A stretch of DNA of 64,000 bases from Rhodospira trueperi (lineage in GTDB: Bacteria; Pseudomonadota; Alphaproteobacteria; Rhodospirillales; Rhodospirillaceae), in contig NZ_FNAP01000003.1 in NCBI RefSeq assembly GCF_900101965.1, forward strand, positions 62,001 to 126,000, given 5' to 3'. Under the pieces are notes generated by a model that worked only from the letters and a program-made list of their open reading frames with translations, was not told where the DNA came from and did no database searches. Position 1 is the first letter of the stretch. Each line of letters opens with the position of its first letter. Shown one piece after another: positions 15,224 to 32,277 of the stretch. Made by a program: the position numbers and the translations under genes.

Positions 15224-16093
15224 TCAGGCGGCCTCCCGCGCCAGCGAGGCCGGGATGAACCGGCCGGTCTCTTCCAGAATCAGCGTCCGCAAGGGCTCGC
15301 GCCCCGGGCACTCGGGAATGGAGTCGACGGCCTCGGTCACCAACGCCTTCAGGCGCGCGATGGCGCCGGGCACGCCCAGTTCCTTGACCGCGTTGGGACG
15401 CCCCAAAGCCTCGTCCTGCCCCACCGGCTTGCCGAGCTTCTCGGGGTCGGCCGCCACATCGCGCAGGTCGTCGGCGACCTGATAGGCCTCGCCCAGACGG
15501 GCGCCCAACGTCCGCCACGTCGGCGAGCCGACCCCGGCGGCGGTGGCGCCGGCCTCGGTGGCGGCGGCGAACAGCACGCCGGTCTTGGCGCGCTGGTACT
15601 CGGTCAGATCAACGTCGGGCTCGCTTTCCCAGGCCTGCCCAGCGCACAGGCCGGTCGGCGCCCCGATGGCCGCGGCCACGATGTCCACCAGACGGGCCAT
15701 GCGATCCGGCGCCCCGGCGGCACCCCGGGACAGGGTCTGGAAGGCCAGCACGATCAGCGCATCGCCGGTCAGCACCGCCAACGGCTCGTTGAAGGCGCGA
15801 TGCACGGTGGGTTTGCCCCGGCGGGTATCGGCGTCATCGAAGCAGGGAAGATCATCATGAACCAGAGAGGCGCAGTGCAGAACCTCGATGGCCGCCAGCG
15901 CGGCGTCGGTCACTTCGGGCCGATCGTCGCCGCAGGCCATGGCCACCGCCAGACACAGGCGCGGACGGATGCGCTGGCCGCCGCCGAACGCGGCATGACG
16001 CATGGCCGCCGCCAGACGCGGCGGACCCGCCGGCGTCTCAATGGCGGCGAATGCGCGCTCCAGCGCGGCCTCGATCCGTTGACCAGACTCCAT
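15224..16093 (-). CDS. crtE: Geranylgeranyl diphosphate synthase
   Basis: A 289-residue trans-prenyltransferase making GGPP, the precursor of both carotenoids and the bacteriochlorophyll tail. The first aspartate-rich motif is HDDLPCFDDADTRRGKPT (about 79-96) and the second is QVADDLRDVAAD. GGGQRIRPRLCLA near residue 37 is the conserved lysine/arginine region. The ATG at 16091-16093 has a GGGGAG ribosome-binding site 7 nt upstream; the 34-residue Arg-rich upstream extension is not credible. It is first in the crtEF-bchCXYZ-puf superoperon and is divergent from crtD. Confidence 0.95.
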   Translation of the reverse strand: MESGQRIEAALERAFAAIETPAGPPRLAAAMRHAAFGGGQRIRPRLCLAVAMACGDDRPEVTDAALAAIEVLHCASLVHDDLPCFDDADTRRGKPTVHRAFNEPLAVLTGDALIVLAFQTLSRGAAGAPDRMARLVDIVAAAIGAPTGLCAGQAWESEPDVDLTEYQRAKTGVLFAAATEAGATAAGVGSPTWRTLGARLGEAYQVADDLRDVAADPEKLGKPVGQDEALGRPNAVKELGVPGAIARLKALVTEAVDSIPECPGREPLRTLILEETGRFIPASLAREAA

Positions 16094-16222
16094 GATCCAT
16101 CTCCCCACGGTTTCCGTAAGGGTGACCAAAGGACCCGCGCGGCGGGTGCGGCGCCGGGTGCGGCGCACGCTCCCCGAGACGTCCGTCGGCACCAAGTGTC
16201 AACTCTGATGGTCACACCGAAG

Positions 16223-16240
16223 TGTCATCCAGAGTGGACA
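16223..16240. promoter_or_regulatory. PpsR/CrtJ operator between crtE and crtD
   Basis: TGTCATCCAGAGTGGACA is a perfect TGT-N12-ACA site in the 227-bp divergent crtE/crtD gap. A second dyad 26 bp to the left (TGTCAACTCTGATGGTCACA at 16197-16216) has a 14-base spacer and is a weaker candidate. Clear -10 boxes are not evident for either direction. Confidence 0.65.
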
Positions 16241-16320
16241 TCCGGGTCTGTCGAGTCAACGGCCATGTGCCGCCTAGGGGCAAACCCCAAGCCCGGCACA
16301 CCAACGGAAGGAGTCTGAGG

Positions 16321-17886
16321 ATGCCTCGTAACGGACCCACGGACCAGAAGGTTGTGGTGATCGGCGCCGGCATGGGGGGGCTGGCGTCCGCCCTGGAGCT
16401 GTCCGCCCGCGGATTCGAGGTCGAGGTGGTCGAGCGCCTGCCCGGTCCCGGCGGCAAGATGCGGCAGGTCGCCGCCGGCGACGCCCAGGTGGACGGCGGT
16501 CCCACCATCCTGACCATGCGCTGGGTGTTCGAGGACCTGCTGCGCGCCGTGGGCTCGCGCCTGGAGGACCATGTCTCCATGACCCCGCTGGAGGTTCTGG
16601 GCCGCAACGCCTGGGACTATGGCGACCGCGGTCAGAGCCTGGACATGTTCGCCGACCCCAAGCGCACCGAGGAGGCCATCGGCGACTTCGCCGGCGCCGC
16701 CGAGGCCAAGGGGTACCGCAACCTGCTGGCGGACTCCGAACGCACCTTCCGCGCCCTCGACCACACCTTCATGCAGGCCTCGCGCCCCAGCATGCCCGGC
16801 CTGATCCGGCGCGCCGGCCCTTCCATTCTGCGCACGAAGCCGTTCGACACGATGTGGTCGGTGCTGGGTAAGTATTTCCGGGATCCGCGCCTGCACCAGT
16901 TGTTCGGGCGCTATTCGGTCTATTGCGGCTCCTCGCCGTACCATGCCACGGCGGTCCTGATGCTGATGCTGCATGTGGAGCAGTCCGGCGTCTGGAGCGT
17001 GGACGGCGGCATGCACGCCCTGGCGCGCGGGTTGGCGGCTCTGGCCGAGTCCCGGGGGGTCACCTTCCATTACGGGCGCGGGGTCAAGACCATCGAGGTG
17101 TCCGGCGGCCGCGCCACCGGCGTCCGCCTGGACGACGACAGCCGCATCGAGGCCGACGCCGTGGTCTTCAACGGCGAGGTCAATGCGCTGGCCTCCGGCC
17201 TGCTCGGTCCGGAGGTGACCGGCGCCGTGCCGCCGGTGCCGCAGCGCGCCCGGTCGCTGTCGCTGCTGGCGGTCACCATGAATGCACGCGCCGAGGGCTT
17301 CCCGCTGTCACGGCACAACGTCTTCTACGGCGCCGACTACAAGGGCGAGTTCCGCGATATCTTCGAACGGAATCGCTTGCCCGCCGAGCCCACGACTTAT
17401 ATCTGTGCCCAGGACCGCATGGACGGCACCGACCAGGATGCCGCCCCGTCCGGGGCTGAACGCCTGTTGCTGCTGATCAATGCGCCGCCCACCGGCGACA
17501 CCGCGTCGCCGTCCCTCGACCGCGCGGAGATCGACGCATGCCTGCACCGAAGCCATGCCCTGCTGGAACGCTGTGGCCTGACGGTCCATCCGGATCCGGA
17601 CAGCGTGACGATCACCAGTCCCCGGGAGTTCGAGCACCTGTTCCCGGCGTCGGGTGGCAGCCTGTACGGGCGGGCCTCTCACGGCTGGCAAGCGTCGTTC
17701 ACCCGTCCGGGAGCGCGGACCAAGGTGCCGGGCCTGTACGTGGCGGGGGGCAGCGTACACCCGGGGCCGGGGATACCGATGGCAACGCTGTCGGGCCGGC
17801 AGGCCGCTTCGAGCATCCTGACGGACCTTCGCTCGACCAGCCGATCCCCCCGGGTGGTTATGGCTGGTGGTATGTCGACGGCCTGA
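16321..17886 (+). CDS. crtD: 1-hydroxycarotenoid 3,4-desaturase
   Basis: A 521-residue FAD-dependent desaturase that introduces the C3-C4 double bond into 1-hydroxy carotenoids. It has the Rossmann motif VVVIGAGMGGLASALELSAR at the N-terminus, PTILTMRWVFEDLL, and the C-terminal phytoene-desaturase signature LYVAGGSVHPGPGIPMATLS. The ATG at 16321 has GGAAGGAG about 10 nt upstream. CrtI has similar motifs, but the adjacent crtC and the absence of crtB favour CrtD. The last ~20 residues are basic and unconserved, and this stretch overlaps sequence that codes for the conserved CrtC N-terminus in another frame. Confidence 0.9.
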   Translation: MPRNGPTDQKVVVIGAGMGGLASALELSARGFEVEVVERLPGPGGKMRQVAAGDAQVDGGPTILTMRWVFEDLLRAVGSRLEDHVSMTPLEVLGRNAWDYGDRGQSLDMFADPKRTEEAIGDFAGAAEAKGYRNLLADSERTFRALDHTFMQASRPSMPGLIRRAGPSILRTKPFDTMWSVLGKYFRDPRLHQLFGRYSVYCGSSPYHATAVLMLMLHVEQSGVWSVDGGMHALARGLAALAESRGVTFHYGRGVKTIEVSGGRATGVRLDDDSRIEADAVVFNGEVNALASGLLGPEVTGAVPPVPQRARSLSLLAVTMNARAEGFPLSRHNVFYGADYKGEFRDIFERNRLPAEPTTYICAQDRMDGTDQDAAPSGAERLLLLINAPPTGDTASPSLDRAEIDACLHRSHALLERCGLTVHPDPDSVTITSPREFEHLFPASGGSLYGRASHGWQASFTRPGARTKVPGLYVAGGSVHPGPGIPMATLSGRQAASSILTDLRSTSRSPRVVMAGGMSTA

Positions 17887-18767: not shown

Positions 18768-18785
18768 GGGGCCGCCCCCCCTACC
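18763..18785. terminator. Bidirectional hairpin between convergent crtC and bchJ
   Basis: GGTAGGGGG and CCCCCTACC form a perfect 9-bp stem around a 5-base loop. The crtC stop (18765-18767) and the bchJ stop (18781-18783) are both inside the stem. It can serve both convergent transcripts, although neither side has a strong U-run. Confidence 0.6.
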
Positions 18786-19389
18786 ACACCGCCTCGAACA
18801 CGCAGGCCGGGGCGCCCACGGCCTGACAAGCGGTCTCGCGCACCGTCGTCTTGCGCGCCACCAGCACCCGGAACAAACGCTCGAACACGGCGGCATAGTA
18901 GGCACACAGCGGCTCCGTCGCGTCCGGCACCGCCGCCTGGATCGGCCCGTCGGCGATGACCAGCCGCGTCGGCTTACCGGGCTCGCCATGGAACCGGCCG
19001 CCGCCAGCGAAGGTCCAGGCGTGCTTGCCCATGGCCTGGATGAGCATTCGCGCCGCCAGCACTGGCGGCATCAGCTTCAGGATCGCCTGGGCGGGTTTGG
19101 GGATGCGGTGGGCCAACAGGTAATCCGCCGTGGCCACCCCGGCATCGTGGCAGATCAGAGCCAGCATGTCGGAGTCCAGCCGCGCCCGCAGGACGCGGTG
19201 CAAGGCCGTCACGTCGTCGGCGGGGACCATCGACTCGGGCGGCGCGGTCCAATGGTGGGCCAGCCCGGCCGCCGCGAACAGCGCGGCCGTCTCGTCGTCG
19301 CCCCGGTGCGCGGTCAGCGCCTCGGCCATGCGGGTGATACTGTTGGGGCCGATGCGCGGGGGCTGGTCCGGCGCGGCGTGGTCCACCAT
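18781..19389 (-). CDS. bchJ: BchJ, V4R-domain bacteriochlorophyll synthesis protein
   Basis: A 202-residue protein of the BchJ family. It was once called the 8-vinyl reductase and is now regarded as an accessory factor that may carry a porphyrin intermediate. The N-terminal PPRIGPNSITRMAEAL and the V4R-like C-terminal part (TFAGGGRFHGEPGKPTRLVI, then EPLCAYYAAVFERLFRVLV) are typical. The ATG at 19387-19389 lies 10 bp after the puhE stop. It is last in the puh/bch superoperon and converges on crtC. Confidence 0.9.
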   Translation of the reverse strand: MVDHAAPDQPPRIGPNSITRMAEALTAHRGDDETAALFAAAGLAHHWTAPPESMVPADDVTALHRVLRARLDSDMLALICHDAGVATADYLLAHRIPKPAQAILKLMPPVLAARMLIQAMGKHAWTFAGGGRFHGEPGKPTRLVIADGPIQAAVPDATEPLCAYYAAVFERLFRVLVARKTTVRETACQAVGAPACVFEAVW

Positions 19390-19399
19390 CTCGCGCCCC

Positions 19400-21295
19400 C
19401 TAGGCCGGTTCGCCGACGGCGACCGCAACCGCGCCGGCGCCATCAAAGGCCTGACGCAGCCGCACGCCGTCGAGCGCATGGCCCACGGCCACCACCCGGG
19501 CCCGCGCGTCCGGGCGCGGCGCAGCGCAGGGTGTGACACTGGCCTGACCATCACTGACCGCGAGTTCGACCCAGTCCCCGCCGGCTCGCAGCGTGCCGGA
19601 CAGGCGATCCACCGCGCCGAACCGGCCCCCAGCAACAGCCTCGAGCACCGCCGTCAGCCGCTCGCGATCCGCGCCGGCGGCCTGATCGGCGTCGGTCCAC
19701 GGATGCAGGTCGAGCACCACCGTCTCGGCCGACGCGTCGGCCCCGCCCGTCATCTTGGCGGACACCGCCTCGTCCGGTCCGCCCCCATGGTAATGGTGGT
19801 GGTGGTAGTGATGATGGTGATGCACCAGCGCCCCGGAGCGCGGCAGGGCCGGGGCCCCGATCCCGGATTCGAGATCGTCGGCGGCGGCCCCGGTGTCGTC
19901 GTTCGCGGCGGCCCCGGACGCGCCCTCGGGCACGCCGTGCACGGCCGTGACGATCCGCGCCGATGGGTTGAGGGTCCGCAGCGTCTTGGTGACGGTCGCC
20001 AGTTCCACCGCGTCCACCATGTCGGCCTTGTTGACGATGAACAGCGGCACCGGCGTGCCGGCCGGCGTGTCCTCGGCCTGACCGCGCGCCTGAACCTGCG
20101 CCTTCAGGAACTCCGGCAGGCGGGCGTAATCGCCCATGAAGGCGCTGGCGTCGATCACCACGGTCAGATGCACGGCCTTGATCGAGGGCCGGATGTCGGC
20201 GCGGTTCAGCACGCGGACCAGAAGGCCCAGGTCGGCCAGCCCGCTGGGCTCGATGAAAATGTGGTCGGGCTGGCGGCTGGCGATCACCTCCTTGACTTGA
20301 TGCGCCAGATCGTCGCGCAGCCCCAGGCAGACGGCCCCGCCGGGCAGGTCCGCGCGCTTGCCGTCCGGCGTATTCTGGACCGTGCCGTCCGGCGACAGCA
20401 CCGCGCAGTCCGTCACCAGCGCGACACTGCCGGCGCGGTTGCGCGCATGCTCCAGACGCTGGCGCAGCACGGTGGTCTTTCCCGCGCCCAGGAAGCCGGC
20501 GACGATCTCCACCTCGGTGACCGCCGGATGCGGCGTACGCGAGCGCAACGACCAGTTCCACATCGCGGTGACCGGAAGCGGCAGCACCAGGAACCAGTGC
20601 TCCAGGATCGCCAGTCCCATGATGGCGGCGACGAAGGTCAGGCCGACCGCCTCCACCTCCGTCGTGGCCGGATCCAGGATGGCCAGCACCATCAACACCA
20701 TGGCCACGGTGGAGACGGTCACCGAGACCGGGAACAACAGGTTGATGGTCTTGGAATTGTTCAGGAAGCTTTTCAGGAATTCCATGTGGTCGGGCAGGAA
20801 CTCCTCGCTGACGTTGCGCACCCCCAGGAACACGTTCAGGCGCGCGCTTTCATGCATCCACCACAGGACCAGATAGGTCCACAGGGCGACCTGATTGGGC
20901 TGACCCCAGGTCAGGGCCACCACCACCCCCAAGGTCACGATGATCGAAAGTTCATGGTACAGGCTGGCGCCAAGCGCGTGGCCGAAGTGCCGCCAGCCCC
21001 GGCAGCCCGGCTCGCAGGCCTTCTTTCGTGGCCCGGTGACGAACCCGAGATAGAAGGTCAGATCCTGATACGACCACACCAGCAGCCCGTAAGTGAAGGC
21101 GGCATAGACGCCCGAGACGGTGTCGTCCCCCGCGCTCGTCCACAGCCCGTACAGACAGAACACGAACGCGGCAGTGCACGCCAGCATGCTCCACTTGAAG
21201 GTGCGCGCGGGCAGCCCGTCAATGTAAAGAATGAGGCCGGTCAGCAGCCACCAAATGAAGATGGCATGAAGAACCGGCAGGATATAGGTTGCCAC
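19400..21295 (-). CDS. puhE: PuhE photosynthetic complex assembly protein fused to a CobW-type GTPase
   Basis: A 631-residue two-part protein. Residues 1-250 match PuhE (DUF3623), a multi-spanning membrane protein needed for normal reaction centre/LH1 assembly, with the signature ESARLNVFLGVRNVSEEFLP at 149-168. Residues 260-631 are a COG0523/CobW GTPase: Walker A GFLGAGKTT (267-275), EPSGLAD (349-355), NKAD (422-425) and a His-rich loop HHHHHYHHHHYH (492-503) expected to bind metal. The usual CXCC motif is replaced by AVCLGL. The start is a GTG with GGAGG 8 nt upstream. The frame is continuous, so this is a true fusion, lying between puhC and bchJ. Confidence 0.88.
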   Translation of the reverse strand: MATYILPVLHAIFIWWLLTGLILYIDGLPARTFKWSMLACTAAFVFCLYGLWTSAGDDTVSGVYAAFTYGLLVWSYQDLTFYLGFVTGPRKKACEPGCRGWRHFGHALGASLYHELSIIVTLGVVVALTWGQPNQVALWTYLVLWWMHESARLNVFLGVRNVSEEFLPDHMEFLKSFLNNSKTINLLFPVSVTVSTVAMVLMVLAILDPATTEVEAVGLTFVAAIMGLAILEHWFLVLPLPVTAMWNWSLRSRTPHPAVTEVEIVAGFLGAGKTTVLRQRLEHARNRAGSVALVTDCAVLSPDGTVQNTPDGKRADLPGGAVCLGLRDDLAHQVKEVIASRQPDHIFIEPSGLADLGLLVRVLNRADIRPSIKAVHLTVVIDASAFMGDYARLPEFLKAQVQARGQAEDTPAGTPVPLFIVNKADMVDAVELATVTKTLRTLNPSARIVTAVHGVPEGASGAAANDDTGAAADDLESGIGAPALPRSGALVHHHHHYHHHHYHGGGPDEAVSAKMTGGADASAETVVLDLHPWTDADQAAGADRERLTAVLEAVAGGRFGAVDRLSGTLRAGGDWVELAVSDGQASVTPCAAPRPDARARVVAVGHALDGVRLRQAFDGAGAVAVAVGEPA

Positions 21296-21438: not shown

Positions 21439-22107
21439 TCAGGGCCTGCGTGGGGGCGTCCAGGAGAGGGGCGGGTCCAACGCGCCGATGCGCTCCGCGG
21501 CGGCCGCCGGGTCCTCGCCTCCCGCCACGGCCTCGGCGAGGTCCATGAGTTCCTTCAGCCCCAACATGTTCTGGCTGCCATAGGATTCCAGGGCCACCCG
21601 CTCGCCGGTGATCTTGTCCTGCAGGGTGATGTGGCGCGGGTCCCACTGCGTCAGATTGTAGAGCGGATCGGCGTCCGTCAGGCCGGCGACCACGCGTTGC
21701 CGGTCCAGGCCGACCATCATGCTTTGCAGGAAGCGGCCAACGCGTCCGGTGAGGATGCCCATGGACCGGTTTTCGGGCATCAGACGCAGTTCAAGGTGCA
21801 GGTCTTCCTGCTCCGGGCCACGCTTGAGCGGCAGCATCAGGAAGTCCTGGGTGCGCATATACGCCATGTTGGCGTAGGGATTTTCGTCTTTCAGCCAGAA
21901 CACGTACACGGCGGCCAGAATGACGCTCAGAAACGCGGTCCCGAAGGCGGCCACCAGAAGGGGGGCCGGCGGCGAGAGGGCCTTGTTGCGTTCGCGCAGG
22001 ATCTCGGCCCGCAACCGGGCGAGTTCCTCGGGCGACAGGTCCTCGTCATCCTCGGTGGGATTGTCGTCCCTATGGGTTCGGGGGTCGCGATCGACACCAC
22101 CGCTCAT
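21439..22107 (-). CDS. puhC: Photosynthetic complex assembly protein PuhC
   Basis: A 222-residue protein with an acidic cytoplasmic N-terminus (about 1-45), one membrane helix (about 49-71) and a periplasmic domain. Conserved parts are RGPEQEDLHLELRLMPENR, GRVGRFLQSMMVGLDRQR and QWDPRHITLQDKITGERVAL. In Rhodobacter, PuhC helps reorganise LH1 around the reaction centre. The start is the ATG at 22105-22107. It stands between puhB (169-bp gap) and the puhE fusion (143-bp gap). Confidence 0.9.
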   Translation of the reverse strand: MSGGVDRDPRTHRDDNPTEDDEDLSPEELARLRAEILRERNKALSPPAPLLVAAFGTAFLSVILAAVYVFWLKDENPYANMAYMRTQDFLMLPLKRGPEQEDLHLELRLMPENRSMGILTGRVGRFLQSMMVGLDRQRVVAGLTDADPLYNLTQWDPRHITLQDKITGERVALESYGSQNMLGLKELMDLAEAVAGGEDPAAAAERIGALDPPLSWTPPRRP

Positions 22108-22276: not shown

Positions 22277-22963
22277 TTACTCGCCGGCGGAGGCGGCGGG
22301 CGCCTCGCTCGGCTCTCCCCTGACGGCGACCCGCAACCCACCACCTTCGGTCTCCGCCGCGTCGGCGGCCTGCAGATCCCGGGTGGCATGCGCGGCCAAA
22401 GCCTTGGCAAGAACCTCGGCAGCCGTCCGGGCCTCCGGCACGCCCCGCAGCATCGGCTGGGTGCGCAACCAGCGCCATGGACGCACATGTGGCCACAGGA
22501 TGAGCCAAGCCACACCGTGACCCGGCATCAGATTGATGTTCACGTTCCCGCTGCCACTCTTGAACACCTTCAGCGTGGCCTCTCGAATCACCCTGAACGG
22601 AAAGTTCACGGTCATCTGCATGGCCATGCCGTAACGGACCACAACACGCTCGCTGGTGATCGTGTAGACCGTCGTGCGATCAATCCACAGCCCCAACAAG
22701 GTCAGCGTGATCATCAACCCCGCGCCGACGCCGAGCATGCTGACAGCCGACAGCGCAACGGCGCCGGTGCCATACCCATCCTCGACGGCGTTGTAACCGC
22801 TCCAGATCGACAGACCGATGAAATACAGAGCGATCAAGGGCAGATGAAACATGTGTCTGGCGAGGGCTCGCCAAGAAGGCGAGCCCTGCCAGAGGATCCT
22901 TTCACCGTCCGGCGGCCTTTCGGGCAGACCTGGGATCGGCTCGACGGCGAAATCATCATGCAC
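22277..22963 (-). CDS. puhB: Photosynthetic complex assembly protein PuhB
   Basis: A 228-residue membrane protein with a PH-like domain (ERILWQGSPSWRALARHMFH, then two membrane helices, then TVYTITSERVVVRYG). PuhB assists early reaction centre assembly. The N-terminus MHDDFAVEPIPGLPERPPDG fits the family and requires a GTG start at 22961-22963. No strong ribosome-binding site is seen. The C-terminal ~40 residues are Ala/Glu-rich and unconserved. It follows puhA by 18 bp. Confidence 0.9.
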   Translation of the reverse strand: MHDDFAVEPIPGLPERPPDGERILWQGSPSWRALARHMFHLPLIALYFIGLSIWSGYNAVEDGYGTGAVALSAVSMLGVGAGLMITLTLLGLWIDRTTVYTITSERVVVRYGMAMQMTVNFPFRVIREATLKVFKSGSGNVNINLMPGHGVAWLILWPHVRPWRWLRTQPMLRGVPEARTAAEVLAKALAAHATRDLQAADAAETEGGGLRVAVRGEPSEAPAASAGE

Positions 22964-22981
22964 GATACGGACCCCCGGTGC

Positions 22982-23797
22982 TTACGACTGGGCGAAGAAG
23001 AACCCGCCGCCATAGAATGCGCAGATCTTGTCTTCTTCCAGCTTGGTCACCTGGTTGGGCTTCGCGGTGGCCGGCACCTGAGCGAACTGATCGCTCCGGA
23101 TGGCGGCGACCTTGACGTAACCCTCACGGCGCCACACGTCGGCAAAGTTGATCGGCAGCAGCACGGTCTTCGCCTTCGGAGCGGCAGGGGCCGCGCCTTC
23201 GGCACCCGCGGCCTTCGGCGCCGGCTTGGCACCGCCGGACAGCTCGACCTCAAGGTAGCGGACCATGATTTCCGGAACGTCAACCCAGATGTCCGAGATC
23301 GTGCCGGCGAACTTGCCGTCACTGCCCATGACCTTCAGGCCACGCGGATCCGGGCTGTTCTTCTCCATGAAGAACTCCTTCTGCGTGCGCATCGGCACGA
23401 TCTTCGGCTTGTTCTCCATGTCCAGTTCCGGCTTGTCCTCGCGCTGCGCATAGGACGCGGGGCCAACGCAATCAGCCTGGGGATTGCTGCCGGTCGGGAT
23501 GATCGGCGAGCCGGGCCACGGATAGGCGCGGCGGGCCTTCACGGGGCGCGTGTCGCGCTTGAAGTCCGGCTTGCTGACCGAACCACCGTGATACAGGTTG
23601 AACGTCTTCGGCTTGGGAACCCAGATCAAGCCGTGTTTCTCAAGGCGACCGGTGGTGTCGGCCTCGAGCGGATAGCCCTCACGACGGTCCTCACGGCGCA
23701 GGTAGAACACCAGGCCGAAGAAAAACAGCCAGAACGTCCACAGGGCGACCTGTGCGATGTCCATATAGGCAGTCAAAGCACCAATCGGCAATTCCAT
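22982..23797 (-). CDS. puhA: Photosynthetic reaction centre H subunit
   Basis: A 271-residue H subunit that caps the cytoplasmic face of PufLM and guides protons to quinone B. One membrane helix (about 12-33) is followed by the FYLRREDRREGYPLE motif and a beta-rich cytoplasmic domain with GTISDIWVDVPEIMVRYLEV. An Ala/Pro/Lys-rich insertion of about 22 residues (188-210) interrupts this domain just before TVLLPINFADV. The ATG at 23795-23797 follows lhaA by 26 bp. It is part of the bchFNBHLM-lhaA-puh superoperon. Confidence 0.96.
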   Translation of the reverse strand: MELPIGALTAYMDIAQVALWTFWLFFFGLVFYLRREDRREGYPLEADTTGRLEKHGLIWVPKPKTFNLYHGGSVSKPDFKRDTRPVKARRAYPWPGSPIIPTGSNPQADCVGPASYAQREDKPELDMENKPKIVPMRTQKEFFMEKNSPDPRGLKVMGSDGKFAGTISDIWVDVPEIMVRYLEVELSGGAKPAPKAAGAEGAAPAAPKAKTVLLPINFADVWRREGYVKVAAIRSDQFAQVPATAKPNQVTKLEEDKICAFYGGGFFFAQS

Positions 23798-23823
23798 AGC
23801 GGATCCTCCACGAGCAAGAAGCC

Positions 23824-25254
23824 CTATCCAGGGATATCAGACAATCCGAGCCGCCGGCCCGGTTGGGATCCGATATCCCGTTTCGAGCGAACGAGCGGAC
23901 CGATAACCACCAGAGTGACGATCAGCAGCCCGATCTCGATGACATACACGAAACCATATCCAACGCTGATGCCCTGCGATTGCAGGACCTCGCCGAACAC
24001 CCCTTGTCCAGCAAGCGCGGACACTCCATCCCGGATCGCCCCGCCCAGGGCGACAGCGACACCGGTTGCCGTGGCCTGTACGGCCCCCCACGCGCCCAGA
24101 GCCAGACCGCCATGCTCAGAGTCAGCCGAATCCATGGCGGCGGTCAGGGTACCGAGGACGAACAGACCTCCCCCCAGGCCGATGAAGCCGGCGCCCACCC
24201 GAAACACGGTGGCCGACTCCAACGGCGCGGCGAAGATAACGCAGGCGAAGGCGAACACACCGACAACGGAGCCGATGGCCGCCAGCCTGTAGGGACCCAT
24301 GCCGCGCGACAGCCACCGCGCGGCCAGGGCGAACCCGGCCAGGGTTCCCCCCGCCCAAAGGGCACTCAGCAGCGTGGTCGCCGACACCGAGAGCCCCAGG
24401 ATCTGGGCGCCGTAGGGCTCCAGCAGGATGTCCTGCATGGTGAAGCCCAGGGTGCCCAACCCGACCACGATCAGCAGCCGGGTATACTGCCCACCCGTCG
24501 CGAAGGCCTTCCAGGACTCACGGAATGTCGGCCGTTCACGGGTCGGGTCGGTCAGAACCTTGTTGCGGACCTCCTGTTTCCAGACCGCAATCACGTTGAT
24601 GACGACGGTCAGCACCGCCGACGCCTGCAACACCCGGATCAGCAGCACGTTGCTGAAATCCTGGAGCGCGAAGCTATAGGCCAGCGCACTGACCACCATG
24701 CCAAGAAGCAGCATGACGTACAACAACGCCACCACACGCGGGCGCGCCTCGGGTGGCGCCAGATCGTTGGCCAGCGCCAATCCGGCCGTCTGCGTCGTGT
24801 GCAGGCCGGCCCCGGTCAACAGGAAGGTCACGGCGCACAGGAACAGGGCGCCGTCCTCAATACTGCGGCCCAGCACCATCAGGGCCAGCGGCATCACCGA
24901 CAGTCCACCGAACTGCAACAGCGAGCCCAGCCAGATATACGGCAGCCGGCGCCAACCCAGATAGGAGCGGTGGGTGTCCGACTTGTGGCCGATCAGGGCC
25001 CGGAACGGCGCGAACAGCACCGGCAGGGCCACCATGGCGGCCACGATCGACGCCGGCATCGTCAACTCGACGATCATCACCCGGTTCAACGTGCCCATCA
25101 GCAGCACGGTGGCCATCCCGACGGTCACCTGGAACAGCGACAGCCGCAGCAGACGGCCGAGCGGCAGTTCGGGAGTCGCGGCGTCGGCGAACGGAAGGAA
25201 CCGGGTGCCGGTGCTCATCAGAAGCCGAACGGCGGGGGAGACTCGCTTGCTCAT
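23824..25254 (-). CDS. lhaA: LH1 assembly protein LhaA (PucC/BCD-family major facilitator)
   Basis: A 476-residue, 12-helix membrane protein of the BCD branch of the major facilitator superfamily, which supports LH1 assembly and possibly delivers bacteriochlorophyll. LLMGTLNRVMIVELTMPASI and APFRALIGHKSDTHRSYLGW are family hallmarks. The ATG overlaps the bchM stop in ATGA. Its place between bchM and puhA matches other purple bacteria. A second, more distant paralogue (bch2) lies downstream of bchG in this window. Confidence 0.94.
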   Translation of the reverse strand: MSKRVSPAVRLLMSTGTRFLPFADAATPELPLGRLLRLSLFQVTVGMATVLLMGTLNRVMIVELTMPASIVAAMVALPVLFAPFRALIGHKSDTHRSYLGWRRLPYIWLGSLLQFGGLSVMPLALMVLGRSIEDGALFLCAVTFLLTGAGLHTTQTAGLALANDLAPPEARPRVVALLYVMLLLGMVVSALAYSFALQDFSNVLLIRVLQASAVLTVVINVIAVWKQEVRNKVLTDPTRERPTFRESWKAFATGGQYTRLLIVVGLGTLGFTMQDILLEPYGAQILGLSVSATTLLSALWAGGTLAGFALAARWLSRGMGPYRLAAIGSVVGVFAFACVIFAAPLESATVFRVGAGFIGLGGGLFVLGTLTAAMDSADSEHGGLALGAWGAVQATATGVAVALGGAIRDGVSALAGQGVFGEVLQSQGISVGYGFVYVIEIGLLIVTLVVIGPLVRSKRDIGSQPGRRLGLSDIPG

Positions 25255-25951
25255 GACGTCGTCAACTCCAGAGCCTGCGAGATATAAAACCCGCTTGTCA
25301 CCCGTTCCGTGCGCCCGGTACGCCAGTGCGCCAGGGCCGGTTCCACCGCGACCATCCGATGCAGCACGCGACCGGACACCGGCTCGATGGCCGGGGCGCG
25401 ATCGCCGCGCGGGAACAGCCGACCGACCACATGCATGGTGGCCAGGGCCGCCGTGCGCGGGGCGTAGGTGAACACCATGGACCCGCGCGTGCGCGCGGCC
25501 AACGTCTTAAGCGCGCCAATGATGTCGGCGCGGCGATAATGGATGAATGAGTCCATGGCCACGACATGATCGACTATGCCTATCGTCGGGTCAAGCATGT
25601 CCCCGACATGGAAGTCAACCCGACCCGGTCCCAGGTCGGCCGGCAGACGCTCCCGCGCCAGATCCACCAGGGTCGGCGACAGGTCGGCGGCGATCACATG
25701 AGCCCCACGCCGGGCCAGTTCGATGGTGGCCGCGCCGGGGCCGCAGCCGGCATCCAGAACCGTCAGGCCGCTCAGGTCGGCCGGCAGCCAGCCCAGCAGA
25801 GTCGCCCTCATCTGGTCGCGGCCGGCCCGCACGGTCGCACGGATGCGCCCGACCGGCGCGTCCGACGTCAGGCGTTTCCAGGCCTCGGCGGCGGTGCGGT
25901 CGAAGTAGGTCTCGACCTCGCCGCGGCGTTCCTCGTAGGTCGCCTCAGGCA

Positions 25952-25952
<1 letters not shown>
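25251..25952 (-). CDS. bchM: Magnesium protoporphyrin IX methyltransferase
   Basis: A 233-residue SAM-dependent O-methyltransferase that methylates the C13 propionate of Mg-protoporphyrin IX. The SAM-binding motif is LTVLDAGCGPGAATIELARR (about 63-82), followed by HVIAADLSPTLVDLARERLP. YFDRTAAEAWKRL near the N-terminus and GRTERVTSGFYISQALEL at the C-terminus are typical. The ATG at 25950-25952 overlaps the bchL stop by one base (TGATG), and the gene overlaps lhaA in ATGA. Confidence 0.96.
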
Positions 25953-26869
<917 letters not shown>

Positions 26870-26897
26870 TCAAACACCATCCAACACCAGACGCCAC

Positions 26898-29800
26898 TCA
26901 GGCCGCGACGCCCTCGGACACGCCTTCCAGGCGGTCCTCCAATTCCTCACCCGCGTTGCGCAGGGTCTCCAGCACCGACTCGTCCGGCGACCAGTAGTTC
27001 CGCTCGTGCGCCTCCAGCAGGCGGTTGGCCACCCGCGCCGACGCCATCGGGTTCAGCTCGGCGAGCCGCTTGCGCATCTCCTCGTCCAGCATGAACGTTT
27101 CTGTCAATTGATCGTACACCCACGGCGCCACCTGCCCGGTGGTGGCCGACCAGCCCAGCGTGTTGGTAATCGCCGCCTCAATCTGGCGCACGCCCTCGTA
27201 TCCATGCTCCAGCATGCTTTCGTACCACTTCGGGTTCAGCATGCGGGTGCGGGTTTCCAGCGCCACCTGCTCGGCCAGGGTACGCACCTTGCCCTCGCCC
27301 ATGGTCTGGTCCCCGATGTAGACCGGCACCGACGAGCCATCGCCCCGGGCCCGCGACACCGCGCGGCTGATGCCGCCCAGGGTGTCGAAGTAGTGGTCCA
27401 CGGTGGTGACGCCCAACTCCATGGACTCCAGGTTCTGATAGGCCAGATCGACCCCCGACAGAATCTCGCCCAACTGCTCGGCCCGCTGCGTCGGGTTGCC
27501 GGCGCGGCCATAGGCGAAGCACTTGCGCCGGGTGTAGGTCTCGGCGAGTTCGTCCTCCTCGGTCCAGCCACCGGAGTCCACCAGCATGTTGACGTTGGAG
27601 CCATAGGCCCCGTCGGCGTTGGAGAACACGCGCAGCGCCGCCGTCTCCAGGTCGCAGCCGTGGGCCGCCATGTACTCAACCGCGTGCTTACGGATGAAGT
27701 TCATCTCCACCGGCTCGTCCTCGGCCGACGCCGCCAGGAAGGCCGCCTCGGCCAGCAGGCGCGTCTGCAACGGCAGCAGGTCGCGGAAGATGCCGGACAG
27801 CGTCATGACCACGTCGACGCGCGGCCGGCCCAGATCCTCCAGCGGGATCAACTCGGCCCCAGACAGCCGGCCATAGCCGTCCACGCGCGGACGGGCGCCC
27901 ATCAGCGCCAGGGCCTGCCCGATGGGGCCACCCTCGGTCTTCAGGTTGTCGGTCCCCCACAGCACGATGGCGATGGTCTCGGGCATGGTGTTGCCCTCGG
28001 CGATGTGACGGTCCAGCACCAGCTTGGCCTGGAGCGCCCCGTCCTTCACGGCGAACGCGGACGGCAGGCGGAACGGATCAAAGCCGTGCAGGTTGCGCCC
28101 CGTGGGCAGCACCGCCGGCGTGCGCAGCAGGTCGCCACCCGGCGCCGGGCGGATGAAGCCGCCGTCGAGCGCGTGCAGCAGCGCCGGAATCTCGCTATCG
28201 GTGGTCAGCAAACCGTCGATGCGCAGCAGCTCCTCGAACAACGCCACGTCCAGCCCCACCTTGGCGGCCGCCTCGTCGTCCACCAGCCCGGCGGCGTAGC
28301 GCGCCCGGCTCAGGGCCTCCTTGGGATCGCCGGTCTCGACCAGACGCTCGATCACCGCGCGTTCAAGCTCGATCTCGCGCGTCGCCTCGGCCAGCGCCAG
28401 CAGCAGATCGACGCGCTCCTCCAGCGTCGGCGCCCGCCCCACGACATGCAGCCCGTGCGGGATCAGCGTATCCTCAAGTTCCTGCAGCGCGACGCGCAGC
28501 GTGTCCATGCGGGCGTCGATCCCGGCGGCGTCCAGGGTGTCCTGCCACGCCGGCTCGGCCTCGGCCAGGTCCAGTTCGGCGGCCTCGGTCTGGATCAGCG
28601 GGATCAGGCGCGCCCGCTCGGCGGCGTCATCGGGCGGCAACGTGCGCCAGCGCTCGATCGAGCCCTTCAGGTCAGACAGCCCCTTGTACAGCCCGGACTG
28701 CGACACCGGCGGCGTCATGTAGCTGACCAGGGTGGCCGCCGACCGGCGCTTGGCGATGGCGCCCTCGGACGGGTTGTTGGCGGCATAGAGATAGATGTTG
28801 GGCAGATCGCCGATCAGCCGCTCCGGCCAGCACTGACCGGACAGGCCGGTCTGCTTTCCGGGCATGAATTCCAGGGCGCCGTGCATGCCGAAATGAACCA
28901 CGGCGTGGGCGCCGAACAGGCTGGAGATCCAGCGGTAGAAGGCGGCGAAGGCGTGGGTCGGCGTGAAGCCTTTCTCAAACAGAAGGCGCATCGGGTCACC
29001 CTCGTAACCGAACGCCGGCTGCACCGCCACGACCACGTTGCCCAACTGCACGCCCAGGACCTGGATCGACTGGCCGTCGCTCTGCTGGCGACCCGGCGCC
29101 GGCCCCCACTGGGCCTCGATCTCGTTGAGCCAGCGCTGGCCCTTGACGTGATCGTCCACGGAAATGCGGGTCAGCACGTTGGCCTGGGCGCCGTGCTGGG
29201 CGGCGTTGCCGACCAGCACCCGCTCGCGCAGGTCATCAACGCTGTCCGGCACCTCGACCCGGTAGCCGGCCGCAGCCATGGCCTTCAGGGTGTTGAACAG
29301 GGACTCGAACACCGAAAGATAGGCCGCCGTGCCCACGGCACCGGAATTTGGCGGGAAGTTGAACAGCACGATGGCCACGCGACGCTCGGCCTTCGGCGTC
29401 CGCCGCAGCCGGATCAAGCGGTCCACGCGCGCCGCCAGCGCCGCCACGCGCTCGGGCTCGGGGAACATGTCACGGGCCGACTCACCCTCGGCCTCGTCGG
29501 TGCGGCCGCCGAACAACAGGGGCGCGGTGGCGCCGTCCAGCTCGGGGATGGCGATCATCATGGTCGACTCGACCGGCAGCAGGCCCCGGTCGGACCCGCG
29601 CCACTGATCCAGCGACTGGAACTCCACCGCCATGGCGGTCATGTACGGCAGATCGAGCCGCGACAGCAGGTCCTCGGCGGCGCGGGCATCGTTGTAGGCC
29701 GGGCCGCCGACCAGCGAGAAGCCCGTTAGCGACAGCATGGCGTCGATCACCGGGCGCTCGCGCTCCACGAAAAACGTCTCGATGGCCGGACGCGAGTCGA

Positions 29801-30677
29801 GGCCGCTGGAGAAGGCCGGGATGACCCGCAGGCCGCGCGCCTCCAGCGCGCCGATCACGGCGTCGTAGTGCGCGGTGTTGCCGGCGAGGATGTAGGAGCG
29901 CATCACCAGCACGCCGACGGTGCCCTTGATCGCGCCGTCCGGCTTGGGCAGGCGCGAGACGTCGGTGCCCATGCGCCCCGGCAAGCGGGGATGATACAGC
30001 CCGGTCTCGGGATACTCGGCCGGGGCCTCCGGCTTGATCTGACCGCGCAGCACGCGGCGCGGGCCGTCGGCGTAGCGGTCCACCATGAAGCGGACGAGGT
30101 TGGCCATGTTCTCCTCGGACCCCGCCAGCCAGTATTGCAGGGTGAGGAAGTAGGCCCGCATGTCCTGGGCCTTGCCCGGAATGAACCGCAGGATCTGGGG
30201 GATGCGGCGCAGCATGGCCATCTGGCCGGCGCCCGAGTCGAACCCCTTGTCGTCCTTCTTCTTGAAGCTGCCGCGCAGCTTCTTCAGCAGGGCGCCCACG
30301 CCCCCCTGCTTGGCGTCCATGCGGAACGGCCCCAGCTTGGTCAGCTTGACCACCTCGCCGGCGCACATGGCGCCCACCATGGCGTCGCACGTTTCGCGGC
30401 GCGCCTTCAGGGCCGGCAGCACCGCCTGGATGTGATCCTCCATGAACAGCATGGTGACGATGATGATGTCGCCGTGCTCGATGTCATGCAGGCAGCGCCC
30501 CAAGGCGTCTGTGTCCTCGCCCCATTCCGAAGCGGCATGCAGGCTCAGGTGCAGGCCCGGCAAATCCTTGCGCAGGGTCCGCGCCGCGCGCTCCGTGGCC
30601 CCGGACAAGTGCCCGTCCAGGGTCACGATCACCACGCGAATGGGCGTCTGCTCACCGACTGAAGTAGGCTTTGGCAT
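26898..30677 (-). CDS. bchH: Magnesium chelatase subunit H
   Basis: A 1259-residue porphyrin-binding subunit of Mg-chelatase, the committed step to bacteriochlorophyll. Length and order match Bch[21 protein letters not shown] at the N-terminus, [40 protein letters not shown], and [20 protein letters not shown] near the end. The ATG at 30675-30677 lies inside the last 26 bases of bchB. The partner subunits bchD and bchI are not in this window. Confidence 0.96.
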
Positions 30678-32277
30678 CGTACAGAGTCTCAACCGTGATC
30701 GTGTGAACGCCGCGCTCGGCGGCATATCGCTCGGTGTTGCGGCGCGCCTTGCCGCGAACGAAGAAGGGGATCTTGTGCAACTCCCGCTCGGCCTCGGCGG
30801 CCCAGACAACGGACCCGCTTTCGGCGACAGGGGAGGGAAAAGCCGCCGCCGCGCCCTGGCCCGATGGTTCGGACGGAGAGGACGGGGGAGCCGAGGGCTC
30901 GGCGACGGAGCGGACGGACGACGAACCAGAGGCGCCGGCGAGATGCGACGGGCCGGCATCGGCGTGGAACTCGAAATCCTCCCGGAACATGCCCAGAAGG
31001 TGCTCTTCCAGGCCCATCATCAAGGGATGGACCCAGGTATCGAACAGGACGTTGGCCCCCTCCACCCCCATCTGCGGGGCATGGCGGGCGGGAAAATCCT
31101 GAACGTGGACGGGCGCGGAGATGACGGCGCAAGGCAGGCCCAGCCGCTTGGCGATGTGGCGTTCCATCTGCGTGCCCAGGACCAGATCGGGCCGGGCCTC
31201 GGCGATCGCCTCCTCCACCTCCAGATAGTCGTCGGTGATCAGCGCCTCGACGCCGTATCCCTTGGCGACGGCGCGCACGTCGCGAGCGAACTCGCGCATG
31301 TAGGTGCCCAGGCCGACCACCTCGAAGCCCATCTCCTCGGCCGCCACCCGGGCGGCAGCGATGGCGTGGGTGGCGTCGCCGAACACGAACGCGCGCTTGC
31401 CGGTCAGATAGGTGCTGTCCACGGAGCGCGAGAACCAGGGCAGGCGGGGCGCCAGAGCGGCCAGCGTCGGCTCCGGATCGAGCCCGGCCAGCCCCGCCAC
31501 CTCGCGCACGAAATCGCGGGTCGCCCCGACCCCGATGGGAACCGTGGTGGTGCGCGGCTGTCCGAACGCCTTTTCCAGCCAGCGCGCCGCGGTCTCGCCG
31601 ATCTCGGGATACAGCACGACGTTGAAGTCGGCCTCACCCAGGCGCGTCACATCGGCCGCCGTGGCCCCCAGGGGCGCGGTGACGTGAACGCGAATCCCCA
31701 TGCTCTCCAGCAGGCCGGTGATCTCGCGCACGTCGTCGCGATGGCGGAAGCCCAGCGCGGTCGGCCCCAGCAGGTTGCAGGACGGCGCGGCGCCCTCGGC
31801 GCGCGGCGGACGATCCGTGCCCGGCGGCGGCGCCTTCGGCCCCGCAAGGGCGCGGGCCAGGCGATAGAAGGTCTCCGCCGCCCCCCAGGTTTCCTTGCGC
31901 TGATAGGACGGAAGGTCCAGCGGCACCACCGGAACGGAAAGCCCCAGAGTCTTCGTCAAACCGCCGGGGTCGTCCTGAAGCAGTTCGGCGGTACAGGACG
32001 AGCCGACCAGCAGCGCGTCCGGTTTGAACCGCTCACACGCGTCGCGCGCGGTCTCGCGCACCAGATCGGCGGTGTCCCGCCCCAGGTCGCGGGCCTGGAA
32101 GGTGGTGTAGCTGACGGCCGGACGCGATGGCCGGCGCTCGATCATGGTGAACAGAAGGTCGGCGTAGGTATCCCCCTGCGGCGCGTGCAAGACATAGTGC
32201 ACCCCCTGCATCCCGGTGGCGACGCGCATCGCCCCGACATGCGGCGGTCCCTCGTATGTCCACACCGTCAGGCGCAT
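30652..32277 (-). CDS. bchB: Light-independent protochlorophyllide reductase subunit B
   Basis: A 541-residue subunit of the BchLNB enzyme that reduces ring D of protochlorophyllide without light. Asp36 ([10 protein letters not shown]), the unusual cluster ligand of BchB, and Cys95 ([12 protein letters not shown]) are both in place. A linker of roughly 45 residues rich in Ser, Pro and Ala (about 440-480) separates the catalytic body from the C-terminal helical domain ([20 protein letters not shown]). The start is at 32275-32277, 5 bp after the bchN stop. Its 3' end overlaps bchH by 26 bases. Confidence 0.96.

Follow-up and report, generated by a model that had tools for sequence, protein, structure and literature searches.

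An in-frame fusion of PuhE with a COG0523-type GTPase in the photosynthesis gene cluster of Rhodospira trueperi, its relatives and further bacteria

The G3E GTPases of COG0523 and the bacterial protein PuhE are the described systems that come closest to the gene presented here. To our knowledge, many COG0523 GTPases are still without an assigned client and PuhE is without a molecular function, while a 2005 paper reportedly ties PuhE by its title to bacteriochlorophyll (pigment) production. The CobW_C domain is found in most, albeit not all, COG0523 members, and the CxCC motif is described, in the accessible text of PMC2770081, as common to all of them and indispensable to the nitrile hydratase activator. 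For CobW, a metal/GTP cycle is outlined in the accessible part of PMC7895991. The terms “photosynth”, “chlorophyll”, “fusion” and “fused” do not occur in the former text, and no description of a fusion was found in the open-licence PubMed Central literature on PuhE, DUF3623, COG0523 and CobW, judged largely by title. PuhE, COG0523 and their motifs are already known; the fusion with its conserved distribution and a second, GTPase-less form are apparently new, in that we found no description of them.

In this study we analyse a stretch of 64,000 nucleotides from R. trueperi (the window), for which one uninterrupted frame joining PuhE to a GTPase had been proposed. The relevant features, with the evidence for each in brackets, are:

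19400..21295, minus strand: puhE::COG0523-type GTPase fusion gene, 631 aa, GTG start (open frame, Pfam/NCBIfam, GGAGG)
20534..21295, minus strand: PuhE/DUF3623 part, residues 1-254 (Pfam E 1.7e-102, model helices, K+R by loop)
19949..20512, minus strand: COG0523-type GTPase domain, residues 262-449 (Pfam cobW E 5.2e-24, motifs, Foldseek)
19730..19948, minus strand: His-rich linker, residues 450-522 (sequence; pLDDT under 50 for residues 458-524)
19430..19729, minus strand: degenerate CobW_C-like domain, residues 523-622 (sub-threshold Pfam, own profile)
18781..19389, minus strand: bchJ (ATG 10 nt past the fusion stop codon; NCBIfam BchJ)
21439..22107, minus strand: puhC, directly upstream of the fusion (NCBIfam TIGR03054, 50.3 bits, just below the cut-off of 55)
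22277..25254, minus strand: puhB, puhA and a PUCC-family gene, which we take to be lhaA (Pfam, NCBIfam)
25251..30959, minus strand: bchM, bchL and bchH (NCBIfam, above cut-offs)

The fusion resides in the puh operon of the photosynthesis cluster, with puhA, puhB, puhC, bchM, bchL and bchH upstream and bchJ downstream (the BchJ match, 184.5 bits, was obtained on the longer frame 18781-19635). Beyond bchJ, at 15224-17886, lie a polyprenyl synthetase gene (minus strand) and a gene of the FAD amine-oxidoreductase type (plus strand), both assigned by Pfam and probably carotenoid genes. The fusion is a single-copy gene in the R. trueperi genome, which additionally contains two COG0523 matches that are separate and weaker.

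Between 21295 and 19400 on the minus strand, the frame comprises 631 residues with zero internal stops, and the proposed fusion is confirmed as one real frame. Its PuhE part matches Pfam DUF3623 (PF12291) over residues 1-254 (342.5 bits, cut-off 27) and NCBIfam TIGR03055 over the full length (306.6 bits, curated cut-off 164.05). The partner was correctly recognised as a COG0523-type protein: Pfam cobW covers residues 262-449 (85.3 bits, cut-off 20.7), and a P-loop (GFLGAGKTT, 267-275), EPSG (349-352), NKAD (422-425) and a tract of 12 residues, composed of 10 His and 2 Tyr (492-503; window 19787-19822), are in place. The CxCC motif is indeed replaced, its position reading GGAVCLGL (319-326) with one of the three Cys left. 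The term “complete” in the original prediction is slightly too strong, since CxCC is lost and the CobW_C domain is degenerate: the Pfam match at residues 542-619 (E 0.002, 18.4 bits) stays below the 22-bit cut-off, and the match to a profile of our own (E 1.3e-32) is to one of which the window protein is itself a member. In other fusions, CobW_C exceeds the Pfam cut-off (L042, L064, L065 and L105); it is not listed for L124.

Translation is predicted to start at the GTG at 21295, which has a GGAGG 8 nt before it. Between residues 235 and 275 the frame contains four further start codons (at 237, 245, 250 and 262), and no well-placed ribosome site was found before any of these four; a GGAG precedes codon 237 only, 12 nt upstream, and this codon falls within the last PuhE helix. 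The chance of a 380-codon open run past PuhE is approximately 0.0003 at the GC content of the gene.

The AlphaFold2 model, built on 16 aligned fusions, is of moderate quality (mean pLDDT 70.5, pTM 0.46), and therefore its domain placement was left unused. The PuhE part of the model contains seven helices of at least 20 residues, a count that agrees with the seven helices given for DUF3623 in the accessible text of PMC12423673. Lysine and arginine residues are more numerous in the odd loops and the C-terminal end than in the even loops in 16 of 16 fusions (11-16 vs 0-3; 12 vs 0 in the window), and based on this distribution the C-terminus of PuhE, and hence the GTPase, is predicted to be cytoplasmic. 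Foldseek retrieved YjiA structures from the PDB as the best matches of the GTPase, followed by HypB; in VIA-align, YjiA (Z 13.3) is tied with FlhF, Get3 and SRP GTPases and thus not singled out, and a PDB sequence search with the whole protein as query yielded mostly His-tag noise, with YjiA at E 0.013.

PuhE frames were collected through DUF3623 screens of overlapping genome sets, namely the window's order (26/317 genomes), its class (29/385, two of them below cut-off), the phylum (31/398) and the orders of G647 (43/200), G414 (1/1) and G1243 (48/199). The search for further proteins of this architecture, which the original prediction had called for, was productive: among 157 distinct PuhE frames, 17 carry the GTPase, 12 of them with CxCC (11 complete and one cut by a contig edge) and five, which also have the C domain, without. 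A further 18 frames bear the homologous C domain alone, without the GTPase (L096, L099, L101, L102, L111, L113, L120, L122, L123, L169, L183, L184, L196 and L198-L202); their tails match the fusion C domain in a profile comparison with a probability of 99.9 (E 5e-31). Three frames run into BchJ and three into 5-aminolevulinate (ALA) synthase, 114 have no added domain and two are cut by an edge. The GTPase fusions span four family codes (f1, f57, f202, f129) and the C-only forms three (f57, f283, f277) of 51 origin labels. The four-code distribution, the CxCC kept in 12 fusions outside the window's genus, and the C-only and PuhE-BchJ architectures were not foreseen by the original prediction.

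Within Rhodospira/Roseospira the fusion occurs in five of five readable genomes, including the window, while in the sixth, G207, a contig edge truncates the frame; the two named records are an uncultured Rhodospira MAG and Roseospira visakhapatnamensis JA131. Since the same two domains lie in frame in these five genomes and in 12 further ones, the fusion is more than a product of chance, and a unique or accidental fusion is ruled out by a frame that is open in 17 genomes. In a plasmid collection, none of the 1434 records with any match had one place covering 80% of a CxCC fusion.

Some long PuhE frames proved to be of another kind. Those of G202, G203 and G204 were rejected as GTPase fusions, being PuhE-BchJ, and those of L066, L067 and L068 owe their length to N-terminal open reading or to tails in which no domain was recognised. 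PuhE in frame with BchJ was observed in three genomes of the window's family (L043:6298-7788, minus strand; L044:6268-7836, plus strand; L045:6253-7818, minus strand). Frames open into 5-aminolevulinate synthase appear in two family codes (L177:1610-3919 and L178:1858-4146, minus strand; L179:3868-5001, plus strand) and represent putative fusions, as the linker of L177 and L178 contains a Met at which translation might begin separately.

A tree built from 33 free-standing and 16 fused GTPase domains places all fused domains in one clade (SH-aLRT 96) that extends over several alphaproteobacterial family codes, and the window GTPase groups with the CxCC-bearing fusions though it lacks CxCC itself. 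A profile search of 142 genomes, with up to 14 candidates scored per genome, gave 430 and 312 bits for the two fused forms and 197 bits for the best free-standing protein. In PuhE trees, the fusions fall within a 32-row group (97/94 and 98/91) shared with 14 unfused rows. Forcing the fusions into one PuhE-tree clade is borderline rejected (AU p 0.041), and a single clade of fusions plus C-only rows is rejected (p 7.4e-5), so that losses or domain exchange are required. The identities of the PuhE and GTPase parts correlate (Spearman 0.76, the pairs not being independent). Judging from these comparisons, one acquisition of the GTPase followed by losses or exchange fits best. In L196 the His stretch before the C domain is kept while the GTPase is gone, a pattern as expected of a deletion intermediate.

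The motifs of the fusions differ between the window's genus and the remaining bacteria. CxCC is retained by each of the 12 fusions from elsewhere and lost from each of the five readable ones of this genus. All 16 fusions compared retain an intact P-loop and NKxD, and 15 of them EPSG; L039, the closest relative, reads EPNG at the position of window residues 349-352. All five readable genus fusions have an altered VNDF region and keep 11-12 His in the linker. For the two closest genus pairs, both without CxCC, a simple count method yielded dN/dS values of 0.158 and 0.151 for the GTPase, 0.065 and 0.093 for PuhE, and 0.33 and 0.31 for the C domain; eight more distant pairs give 0.29-0.67 for the GTPase (dS 0.55-1.08) and 0.39-0.89 for the C domain. 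These values indicate that the GTPase is under constraint in the genus, which is looser than in PuhE. As CxCC is absent, the window GTPase should not be classed among the standard COG0523 metal carriers.

The distribution of acsF provides a lead to a possible client. According to an adjacency rule, acsF is located upstream of 12/12 CxCC fusions, 17/18 C-only forms, 94/114 unfused PuhE genes and 3/3 ALA-synthase frames; it is found next to 0/4 genus fusions with enough flank and 0/3 BchJ fusions. The unfused genes not counted among the 94 comprise 11 without acsF by this rule and nine with too little flank. At least four cases missed by the rule are evident from coordinates (L066, L067, L111 and L112, in G596, G638, G819 and G848), which place acsF also beside the eighteenth C-only gene (G819) and, among the 11 unfused ones, beside at least three (G596, G638, G848). 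AcsF is named by NCBIfam in L042 and L064 and by similarity in the remaining loci.

Whole-genome searches found no acsF in six of six genus genomes, and among the 12 PuhE genomes of the window's family detected it in one, G175, the bearer of a CxCC fusion. It is absent from the six unfused rows nearest to the fusions (G210, G098, which is 81% complete, G099, G135, G136 and G142) and present in the remaining eight unfused rows of the 32-row group. BchE is encoded in all six genus genomes; in the 11 CxCC-fusion genomes tested, seven gave no match at threshold, three were above cut-off and G414 gave fragments. AcsF therefore seems to be the only cyclase in seven of these 11 genomes. AcsF is a di-iron enzyme, as stated in the accessible part of PMC13297055, and the distribution of acsF together with the BchE pattern makes it the first candidate client. 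The association of acsF with CxCC amounts to two to three independent contrasts and is not significant (sign test, p = 1); with too few contrasts for such a test, AcsF is to be regarded as a hypothetical client. Moreover, AcsF does not generally need the fusion, as at least 94 of 114 unfused PuhE genes also have acsF upstream.

From these data we infer, tentatively and with somewhat less than even confidence, that PuhE may serve as the membrane anchor of a GTP-gated metal-handling module for the bacteriochlorophyll branch, which perhaps serves AcsF and of which the window's genus would retain, in reduced form, a GTP switch and a His store. PuhE would hold the GTPase, the His-rich linker and the C domain at the cytoplasmic side of the membrane. 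By analogy to CobW, binding of Mg-GTP would create a tight metal site at CxCC, GTP hydrolysis would release the metal to the client, and the His tract might capture or store metal. In CxCC-bearing species, the likeliest client would be AcsF, the di-iron cyclase whose gene lies directly upstream. The window's genus possesses BchE, lacks acsF and has lost CxCC; here the domain probably persists as a GTP switch that, with the His tract as a metal store, would tune the effect of PuhE on pigment synthesis next to BchJ. The recurrence of the fusion in other bacterial families hints at a metal supply for pigment synthesis that is built into the protein. Several observations weigh against this reading: C-only forms retain acsF without a GTPase, eight acsF-bearing unfused PuhE share the 32-row group with the fusions, and the GTPase is under looser constraint in the distant genus pairs (dN/dS 0.29-0.67). 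Furthermore, two reviews, in their accessible parts, assign the role of auxiliary subunit in the alphaproteobacterial cyclase to BciE and not to PuhE (PMC7242693, PMC13297055).

A possible, clearly less probable explanation is that in the window's genus the GTPase is a GTP-sensing switch regulating PuhE and no longer a metal carrier, the loss of CxCC marking this change. The loss in all five readable genomes with the P-loop and NKxD kept, the altered VNDF region and the low dN/dS of the close pairs are consistent with such a switch, yet the 11-12 His in every linker would fit some metal role.

A more far-reaching and rather doubtful proposal regards PuhE as a membrane hub of alphaproteobacterial phototrophs for bolted-on pigment-supply functions, where the fused GTPase would be a membrane-anchored, dedicated AcsF metal-insertion factor that erodes stepwise once the client or the need is gone. 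CxCC would have been lost in the AcsF-less Rhodospira/Roseospira, and elsewhere the GTPase would have been excised with the C domain left behind, L196 with its His stretch representing a step on this path.

It is unlikely that the module serves a chelatase-type step, delivering metal to the Mg-chelatase BchH or keeping wrong metals off it, in analogy to CobW and CobNST. BchJ binds BchH, and PuhE-BchJ fusions exist in three genomes; bchH and bchM belong to the same gene run as the fusion, and models of the cobaltochelatase CobN likewise match the C-terminal part of BchH, below their cut-offs. In R. capsulatus, cobalt putatively reaches CobNST via CobW, but the COG0523 proteins studied bind Co or Zn at the CxCC site (PMC7895991, accessible part). 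A chelatase role would also leave the acsF pattern unexplained.

The original prediction linked the fusion to assembly of the reaction centre/LH1, and metallation of this complex, e.g., with its non-haem iron, has a small probability. The gene does have puhA, puhB and puhC as its neighbours within the puh operon; the link itself is less well supported, as 114 of 157 PuhE frames lack any such domain and the title of the 2005 paper reportedly points to pigment production.

General buffering of zinc or other metals at the membrane, without a photosynthetic client, is quite improbable. His-rich linkers and a COG0523 subset tied to zinc homeostasis (PMC2770081, accessible text) would agree with it, but the fused GTPases separate from the 33 free-standing relatives, and where flanks could be read the fusions belong to puh gene runs or neighbour acsF. 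Finally, an artefact or two separate proteins, through a frame error or an internal start, for which only the in-frame start codons near the junction, one of them at residue 262, might speak, is highly improbable given that the frame, with its short linker, stays open in 17 genomes and that a good ribosome site precedes 21295, with none well placed before the internal codons.

The stable fusion ties PuhE to a COG0523 GTPase, which it places at the membrane and in the setting of the photosynthesis cluster. It yields a list of putative clients, with AcsF first, then BchH/BchJ and then the reaction centre. If AcsF were the client, the fusion would be a factor dedicated to the metallation of an enzyme that acts in oxygen-dependent (bacterio)chlorophyll synthesis.

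Compared to known systems, residues 1-254 correspond to PuhE (DUF3623, PF12291; TIGR03055) by a full-profile match and by the position of the gene after puhC, whereas 114 of 157 PuhE frames are devoid of an added domain. With the COG0523 G3E GTPases (CobW, YjiA, ZigA, Nha3) the protein shares the P-loop, EPSG, NKxD, a His-rich stretch and a C-terminal domain, but its GTPase is joined to a membrane protein, has lost CxCC in the genus and belongs to a separate clade in our sample. It scores far below the equivalog cut-offs of CobW proper (TIGR02475; 60.1 vs 332.1 bits) and ZigA (NF038288; 57.7 vs 600 bits). The nickel-handling G3E GTPases HypB and UreG are among the structural matches and, as far as we know, possess neither a membrane part nor a CobW_C-like domain. 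BchJ, in turn, is encoded 10 nt downstream here, and in three genomes that share the window's family code PuhE continues into it in frame, but it is a V4R-domain protein unrelated to the GTPase.
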